DNA of 64,000 nucleotides, taken from the NCBI RefSeq assembly GCF_017052585.1, contig NZ_JAFFHZ010000001.1, positions 620,001-684,000 on the forward strand. The letters run 5' to 3'. This document shows, piece after piece, positions 578-49,790 of the stretch (position 1 is its first letter; each line of letters starts with the position of its first letter). The notes beneath the pieces were generated by a model. The model did not search any database. It was not told where the DNA came from and saw only the letters and a program-made list of their open reading frames with translations. Position numbers and translations under genes: made by a program. Source of the DNA: Paenibacillus apiarius (GTDB lineage: Bacteria; Bacillota; Bacilli; Paenibacillales; Paenibacillaceae).

Positions 578-753
578 TGCAAAAGTACAGCTTAAAACAT
601 AAAATAGTCCTTTTTGGATTCAGGAGACTGCAAAAATGCAGGTGAAACCGCCGCTTTCCATCTATCAAGCCTCATTTGGCGCATATGGAATGCACTTTTG
701 CAGCAGAATCTGACAATCGCAGGGGAAACGATGAATTGAGATGTACTTTTGCA
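578..753. repeat. Four-palindrome intergenic element, copy A
   Basis: Four 12-bp units lie at 578-589 (TGCAAAAGTACA), 629-640 (TGCAAAAATGCA), 691-702 (TGCACTTTTGCA) and 742-753 (TGTACTTTTGCA). The first is the exact reverse complement of the fourth. The second is the reverse complement of the third with one mismatch. All four are symmetric about 665.5, with spacings of 51, 62 and 51 bp. The element fills most of the gap between two convergent genes (437-790). Two other loci in the window share the layout (20921-21097 and 49607-49790). Function unknown. Confidence 0.7.
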
Positions 754-20749: not shown

Positions 20750-20920
20750 TAACCAACCGGCCGGCGCACAGCAGAACAATGTTAGCCGGAGAGACGATAC
20801 TCTCTCCGTTCGGCGCTTCCGCTCACTCTCCCCTTCGGTCAGTAACTACGATTCCAGCATCACCGAAGCTCCATGGTGTGGTCGAATGGTTGAGATAATA
20901 GCTGGAGGGAGCGTCTCCCA

Positions 20921-21097
20921 CTCAATCCTGCAATTGAGAGGTTCCCTTTTTGCATCTTTCACAGCGCTGGACTGCAATCGTGCAGTTCAGATTCGCATAA
21001 TTGCAAAAATTATGGCAATCATTCTGATTTGAATTGCACTTTTGCACTTCAAACGCCGAAAAGGGAAAGATTTCGCAAAAACTGCTGCACATTTGCA
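20921..21097. repeat. Four-palindrome intergenic element, copy B
   Basis: Palindromic units lie at 20973-20984 (TGCAATCGTGCA), 21035-21046 (TGCACTTTTGCA) and 21086-21097 (TGCACATTTGCA), spaced 62 and 51 bp. These are the same spacings as units 2-3-4 of the element at 578-753, and the middle unit is identical to that copy's third unit. A decayed fourth unit may sit near 20921 (CTCAATCCTGCA). The spacer holds CCGAAAAG 10 nt after the middle unit, as does the element at 49.7 kb. The surrounding gap (20750-21236) holds no gene. Confidence 0.65.
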
Positions 21098-21236
21098 GTT
21101 CGTCGGCTCCATCCAGCGGGAGGAATGACCTTTCTGAACGAGAGAGTGTGTAAAGAGAAGTGCCAGCAGCGTAATCTATTTATTAGAATTGTATCAGCCG
21201 GACGGCAAACTGTACCCATGATAAGGAGGAAGAACC

Positions 21237-49606: not shown

Positions 49607-49790
49607 ATTGGAAAACATGCAGTGGAATGTGTGAGGGAGGCGAGTAAATGTCATGCAGATTGGATTTTGTCCAATGGATCCGGCTGTTTGGCAACGTTTG
49701 AGGCGGTTGAAGTTCCAAACCATTGGATCAATTCCAATGATATCGACCGAAAAGCGATATATGACTCGCTTTCACTGGACAAAATCCAAT
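49607..49790. repeat. Four-palindrome intergenic element, copy C
   Basis: The 17-bp units lie at 49607-49623 (ATTGGAAAACATGCAGT, decayed), 49659-49675 (ATTGGATTTTGTCCAAT), 49722-49738 (ATTGGATCAATTCCAAT) and 49774-49790 (ACTGGACAAAATCCAAT). Two are perfect ATTGGA-N5-TCCAAT hairpins. The spacings are 52, 63 and 52 bp, symmetric about 49698.5. Units 2 and 4 also pair as an exact 15-bp inverted repeat. The layout matches the elements at 578-753 and 20921-21097 although the palindrome sequence differs. The rest of the gap (49285-49852) shows no gene. Confidence 0.7.

Follow-up and report, generated by a model that had tools for sequence, protein, structure and literature searches.

Four-dyad repeats in Paenibacillus apiarius and its relatives keep a common spacing and differ in unit sequence

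Results

A four-dyad array occurs three times in the window

The DNA analysed here, a stretch of 64,000 nucleotides from Paenibacillus apiarius (referred to as the window), contains three copies (A, B and C) of an element of about 200 bases. Each is built from four dyads of 17–22 bp, two in direct and then two in inverted orientation, which lie ~51, 62 and 51 bp apart (Table 1). Our results suggested that this element is probably an interspersed, mostly intergenic and non-coding repeat, whose core would consist of four putative protein-binding dyads on one face of the DNA.

The preliminary description of this DNA had placed the four palindromes of copy B at steps of 52/63/52 around a symmetry centre at 49698.5, and coordinates, steps and centre are as read by us. 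Its count of the hairpins was also borne out by direct reading: units 2 and 3 (both ATTGGA-N5-TCCAAT) are perfect, unit 4 (ACTGGA-N5-TCCAAT) has one mismatch and unit 1 (ATTGGA-N5-TGCAGT) is decayed. Similarly, the unit positions of copies A and C agree with the layouts of the 51/62/51 type, with TGCA units, that had been proposed for them, and CCGAAAAG is indeed common to copies B and C, where it follows unit 3. We refer to copies A and C as class A and to copy B as class B. The steps are one base shorter in class A, in keeping with its dyad centre of N4 (class B has N5); from one 7-bp arm to the next, both classes alike have gaps of 33/44/33.

Lone TGCA-N4-TGCA units with up to one mismatch were not above chance in the window (44 found, 39.9 expected). 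Their arrangement in fours, in contrast, did exceed chance: in a sequence-agnostic palindrome scan of the window and 60 host stretches, copy B scored 24 of 28 and was among the top three; the one shuffled run had a single place at 23, its maximum.

Table 1. Positions of the arrays and associated elements
Feature	Location	Strand	Details
Class B four-dyad array (copy B)	49607..49790	.	units 49607-49623, 49659-49675, 49722-49738, 49774-49790; steps 52/63/52
Class A four-dyad array (copy A)	578..753	.	units 578, 629, 691, 742; steps 51/62/51
Class A four-dyad array (copy C)	20921..21097	- (subfamily orientation)	units 20921/22, 20973, 21035, 21086; first unit decayed
Segment of ~410 bp, array C plus carrier	20765..21175	.	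missing in G014 ortholog; approximate limits
IS1182-family IS	L029:7223-8790, and 11 complete copies within L122-L133		centre of class A-like units
Class B array	L014		between CTATATAAGTTGAACTA-type TIRs
MITE with four TTAACGGGA-N5 dyads	L149:6242-6636		steps 51/62/52; between CTATATAAGTTGAACTA-type TIRs; adjoins class A array
Class A array	L223		poor left TIR
IS630-family transposase element	L319:1501-2652		TIRs like CTATATAAGTTGAACTA
IS630-family transposase element	L318:346-1517		gene in two reading frames; TIRs like CTATATAAGTTGAACTA

The host genome carries many further copies

Searching the host and related genomes with unit patterns found many further copies, and their spacing is non-random. 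The preliminary description had named a lack of other copies, or random spacing among them, as grounds for refuting its reading, and neither was encountered. In the host genome (6.58 Mb, three contigs), BLAST with copy A gave mainly short partial matches. The one-unit pattern, with up to one mismatch, matched 139 times compared to 24 for the reversed control, and among the matches listed many neighbours were 51 or 61–62 apart. About 1.02 Mb of host sequence, chosen mostly around these one-unit matches, contains 39 four-unit class A elements (called at 27 or more of the 32 core positions), with a consensus unit close to AACTGCA-N4-TGCAGTT. The exact spacing 51/62/51 was observed in 23 of the 39, with 36 step combinations permitted. 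Class B (CATTGGA/CACTGGA-N5) is represented in this sample by ~8 members, a count made by eye on 11 rows.

Several scans made no use of the known unit sequences. The palindrome-only scan gave 62 places at or above threshold and 11 in one shuffle; at scores of 23 or more, 16 of the 17 places were class A or B, one place in L014 being an off-register part of class B. The unit-similarity scan gave 229 places (43 shuffled), and at scores of 70 or more 44 of 45 were class A or B, the exception being L031. When similarity was combined with symmetry, a scan in which coding repeats and GC-rich genes produced many spurious matches, the matches other than class A were 38 in the host sample (class B and IS-split class A among them; 3 shuffled), 70 in the GTDB loci (7 shuffled) and 17 in other loci (3 shuffled). 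Finally, with class A masked and a wide range of spacings permitted, the equal-outer-step scan returned 48 real and 2 block-shuffled matches. Four of these 48 have steps within 49–53/58–64 (expected share 0.7%), and several of those outside resemble coding tandem repeats. Since other candidate classes were seen only in scans with false positives, and four of 48 matches had the expected steps, we treat these classes as leads and not as results.

Candidate four-unit arrays with other unit sequences were listed by the agnostic scan at L182:4436, L173:2616, L148:91, L155:2181, L203:1873 and L229:3957. In addition, L014:11611 and L018:13782 share one palindrome-scan match, which is probably another dispersed repeat. 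An early palindrome-histogram signal was rejected, as it turned out to be an IS; the first of these histograms were spoiled by runs of N or by too few perfect units. Note that L041 and L054 hold 2500 and 7500 N bases.

Classes with different unit sequences share the spacing in other genomes

Adjacent class A unit pairs were present in 17 of 60 genomes, host included, and the reversed-pattern control was zero in all of them. Within the genus the pattern is patchy, being found in 9 of 19 genomes (host included). The three-unit class A pattern occurred in at least 115 stretches of GTDB genomes, and the 80 named matches among them come from Paenibacillus, Cohnella, Fontibacillus and Paenibacillaceae MAGs, together with two MAGs of other phyla (L162 and L184). 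These stretches contain 131 four-unit class A elements, a count that, like that of the 105 elements used below, includes L162, L184 and the tandem-array loci, with some overlap in L216 and L192. The first step is 50–51 in 114 of the elements, the middle step 61–62 in 112 and the last step 50–51 in 108, two of the three steps being constrained by the search pattern. Longer arrays were also seen: one of nine units near 845 in L192 and one of seventeen units, with a 164-bp period, near 2362 in L216, both of which keep class A steps near 51 and 62 bp.

Of 197 genomes of the family, 13 (one being the host's) contain class B pairs, with a maximum of 51 per genome and a reversed control of zero. Their spacing was 51–52 in 17 of 17 loci (44–52 permitted, 52 being the upper limit). 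A further class, D (AACGGA-N11-CTATT, steps 50/59/50), first came up when loci selected for class A were scanned agnostically, and was then sought independently. It was found in 8 of 60 relatives; each of the eight is from a different genus, four belong to other families within the order, and the reversed control was again zero. The first step was 50 in all 11 class D loci used (48–53 permitted). Averaging these loci revealed inverted units at +59 (identity 0.75) and +109 (0.66), compared to a background of 0.26, and the search had not required either of them; the best inverted unit of each locus was at 59 in 5 of the 11 and at +109 in 6 of the 11. This result for the third and fourth units is the strongest test of the idea that the geometry is kept where the sequence differs.

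Outside class D, the third-unit test is weak. The averaged inverted-unit peaks of class B, at 62–63 and 114–115, reached 0.35–0.44 compared to 0.275, and the best inverted unit was at 57–65 in 3 of 16 loci for class B and 9 of 18 for class A in other genomes. The loci used for the test were 11 of 30 for class D, 17 of 17 for class B and 18 of 30 for class A; the class D loci that were dropped had identical spacers or were too near contig ends.

The steps of 50–52 and 59–63 bp correspond to about 5 and 6 turns of B-DNA, and in classes A, B and D the middle step exceeds the outer step by 9–11 bp, about one turn. The structured class envisaged in the preliminary description, in which the palindrome sequence differs and the symmetry and the 5-6-5-turn spacing are kept, was supported by all three classes. 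Some genomes carry more than one of them: the host has A and B, G035 has A and D, and G036 has B and D. The related claim that copy B is a diverged descendant of class A in this genome was not supported: more than one genome carries A and B side by side, and homology of their spacers was not established.

A phage origin of class A was considered and rejected, as the three-unit pattern had no matches in viral contigs. Class D had five and class B four matches in these contigs, and the three of these nine that were inspected were all discarded as arrays: L376 is a repetitive coding region of 1353 aa, L374 looks like repetitive sequence of the L376 type, and L379 has two TTGGA units and, by eye, no four-unit array.

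The unit cores are conserved and the elements are mostly intergenic

Identity to copy C of the window was 343/381 in the cores, 546/666 in the arms and 942/1294 in the spacers, these totals being taken from the 12 loci, of 22 found by their flank, that cover all four units. The identity of the query flank, which contained ~15 bases of unit 1, was 1595/2036 over all 22 loci. Among 21 elements with exact 51/62/51 spacing and no IS end, core identity stayed at 0.87–0.89 in four bins (covering 196 of 210 pairs) and spacer identity dropped from 0.66 to 0.35. Note that the core conservation in this comparison is inflated, because class A was found by its core.

Placement was judged with mechanically called ORFs. 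The overlap is below 5% for 27 of the 39 host class A elements, compared to 8% of random positions, and exceeds half of the element for 10 of the 39, compared to 84% of random positions. Whether the neighbouring genes were convergent, divergent or tandem made no clear difference to where the elements lie.

No compensatory changes were seen in the units

The preliminary description had offered two mechanisms, RNA hairpins and a protein bound to symmetric DNA. None of the 56 unit pair positions (4 units x 14 pairs, the outer ones being flank) beat shuffled partners at p<0.1 in the 39 elements, a test whose power is limited because many of these positions hardly vary. In unit 4, an A is mostly opposite a G at one arm position. 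Spacers 1 and 3 of the same element are not complementary (z -0.68). Reverse-complemented unit 4 and unit 1 of the same element are more similar than expected (p 0.0085), and a like degree of similarity was obtained when units 1 and 2 were compared directly (p 0.007). The stretches of copies B and A fold more strongly as RNA than shuffles do (z -3.4 and -3.2, respectively), an excess that the inverted arrangement alone could explain. When Rfam was searched, the window had no match at gathering level, three carrier loci had none, and locus L001 had chance-level matches only, one of which, sroH (13.4 bits, gathering 80), overlaps array A. With no compensatory change in the unit pairs and no pairing of the spacers, the RNA reading is disfavoured and DNA sites are favoured. 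The term 'covarying palindromes' thus applies to differences between classes; as compensatory change inside units it does not stand.

The arrays are dispersed, with or without carriers of several kinds

Spacer identity within a genome was clearly higher than shuffled in six of seven genomes, the host among them. In P. faecis the mean was 0.77 compared to 0.40 shuffled, and identities went up to 0.99 in that species and 0.98 in Fontibacillus; the four elements of P. sacheonensis were barely above shuffled (0.42 compared to 0.40). Array C and its carrier (~410 bp) are missing from the orthologous site of the close relative G014, whose flanks are 86–91% identical; as an alternative to insertion, G014 may have lost the segment. 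The 14 carrier-like loci sampled from G014 lack a complete class A array (remnants in L281, L282 and L291), so the carrier seems to spread without it. Class B-like four-unit arrays were seen near carrier copies of G014, at L282:3719 and L281:3551.

Some G014 carrier copies end in the TIR CTATATAAGTTGAACTA, L285 at both ends, and copy C of the window has no such TIR. Among nine stretches bounded by CTATATAAGTTGAACTA or its variants, three contain a recognisable array. For this IS630-type TIR an autonomous partner with matching ends was found, but none was found for the array itself; the IS630-family elements of L318 and L319 may be what supplies transposase to MITEs, in G014 as elsewhere.

The homology between copies stops within ~30 bp of the array in P. 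alba and P. oralis, and in P. faecis some arrays are inside composites of ~600 bp. No signal of a target-site duplication was obtained in 37 host elements; in the relatives there was a weak excess, with a duplication in 5 of 105 elements where 0.27 were expected, at one of thousands of offsets tried. No outer ends were found to be constant between genomes. The outer flanks gave no sign of TIRs belonging to the array (mean 16.8, compared to 17.6 at random positions), and only those of L014 (26) and L066 (25) had inverted repeats above the 99th percentile of the control (24). No array split around a gene was demonstrated in the loci sampled, where five pairs are listed as candidates.

An IS1182-family element inserts at the unit centres

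The host genome has 12 complete copies and one partial copy of a 1.57-kb IS, whose transposase belongs to the IS1182 family (NF033551). Each of the 12 complete copies interrupts a class A-like unit at its centre, nine of the loci having been chosen for a nearby element and three (L127, L128 and L131) not. The 6-bp duplication is the unit centre, ANNNNT in ten copies and GNNNNT in two. IS1272, of the same family, targets inverted repeats and replaces the repeat without a TSD, as stated in PMC5678879. In contrast, the host IS leaves the unit in place and duplicates its central 6 bp, which is near the loop-duplicating pathway of the model in PMC5678879. Note that in this relationship of IS1182-family elements to target palindromes the four-dyad array is the target and not the IS itself. 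Targeting of palindrome centres, accompanied by a 6-bp duplication, is clearly exemplified by these insertions.

Discussion

The arrangement described here suggests how the repeat might work. Four dyads, the first two direct and the last two inverted, about 5, 6 and 5 turns apart, would all be presented on one face of the DNA, where four copies of a DNA-binding dimer could assemble a symmetric nucleoprotein complex. Related binding proteins whose specificity has diverged would then use the classes, which have differing recognition sequences and one architecture, and the repeats would spread inside genomes, sometimes within or beside MITE-like carriers. The turn-phased steps and the independently conserved half-sites fit four dimers on one DNA face, and the same architecture with different recognition sequences is as expected for a family of binders of diverged specificity. 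Protein binding, assembly on one face, such a protein family and any link between binding and movement are what we infer from these features.

Other readings have to be considered. In one of them the element would be a non-autonomous transposon, mobilised by a transposase or recombinase for which the dyads are the binding sites, with a separate enzyme for each class. Copies that are homologous within most tested genomes and patchy between related ones, spacer identities that reach 0.99 (P. faecis) or 0.98 (Fontibacillus), and the empty G014 site are what such an element would give; however, the sampled loci have no consistent target duplication, fixed ends or array-flanked transposase gene, and the 14 carrier-like loci of G014 have no complete class A array. 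We consider this reading possible and on balance unlikely. A somewhat lower probability is given to host architectural or regulatory sites resembling REP/BIME, read by a chromosome-organising or regulatory protein, with their spread being incidental. The strong intergenic bias and the retention of unit cores as the spacers diverge speak for such sites, but a pattern present in 9 of 19 genomes of the genus, with more than one class in some genomes, would be odd for a core host function, and there is no clear gene-order preference.

The arrays could also be functionless passengers of IS630-type MITEs and other repeats, given that three of nine CTATATAAGTTGAACTA-type TIR stretches contain one and that elements with similar TIRs encode IS630 transposases. 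We consider this improbable, because it leaves the persistence of geometry and cores in three sequence classes unexplained, and because the homology in P. alba and P. oralis ends so close to the array. Least credible is a structured RNA, made of four hairpins or of one long hairpin: hairpins can form from the units, folding of the A and B stretches is stronger than that of shuffles and unit 1 resembles reversed unit 4 in the same element, but this has to be set against the 0/56 pair positions above shuffles, the A-G opposition in unit 4, the unpaired spacers and the Rfam null at gathering level in the window. We regard four putative protein-binding dyads on one DNA face as the probable core of the repeat.

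BOX, bcr1 and ERIC-type repeats are 100–200 bp long, intergenic and of inverted symmetry, as are the arrays; a similarly fixed arrangement of four dyads, in which the unit sequence can be exchanged, is not known for any of them. The arrays are like REP, BIME and REPIN in being short, high-copy intergenic palindromes that occur in direct and inverted combinations, and with a unit of ~18–28 bp they agree with the 20–40 bp palindromic unit, intergenic position and high copy number by which REP/BIME are defined. They differ from these in having four units, a fixed 5-6-5-turn spacing and several sequences that share this spacing. Moreover, a REP unit has a GTAG or CGTC tag at one end, as given in PMC3733652, and the class A consensus has neither. 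Insertion sequences are also known to target the palindromic units of REP/BIME, in cases at the palindrome axis (PMC1525189). With MITEs of the IS630 type the arrays share a short, non-coding and dispersed nature, and some lie inside such MITEs; however, the array shows neither TIRs of its own nor a consistent TSD, and its carriers are various or none. Judging by titles and the openings of abstracts, we found no description of such an element in the literature.

Repeats are ordinarily recognised by their sequence. Clustering by sequence would split the classes described here into separate families, because what is conserved across genera is the spacing and orientation and not the unit sequence. 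We tentatively propose, as an idea that may well prove wrong, that the arrays represent a new kind of element, a phased scaffold of four sites with interchangeable recognition sequences, read by a diversified protein family, in which the geometry would be the heritable identity. If a protein complex does read these arrays, they would constitute an abundant and so far unrecognised nucleoprotein structure in the Paenibacillaceae and their relatives, and their classes would be a natural experiment in the divergence of binding specificity at constant geometry.
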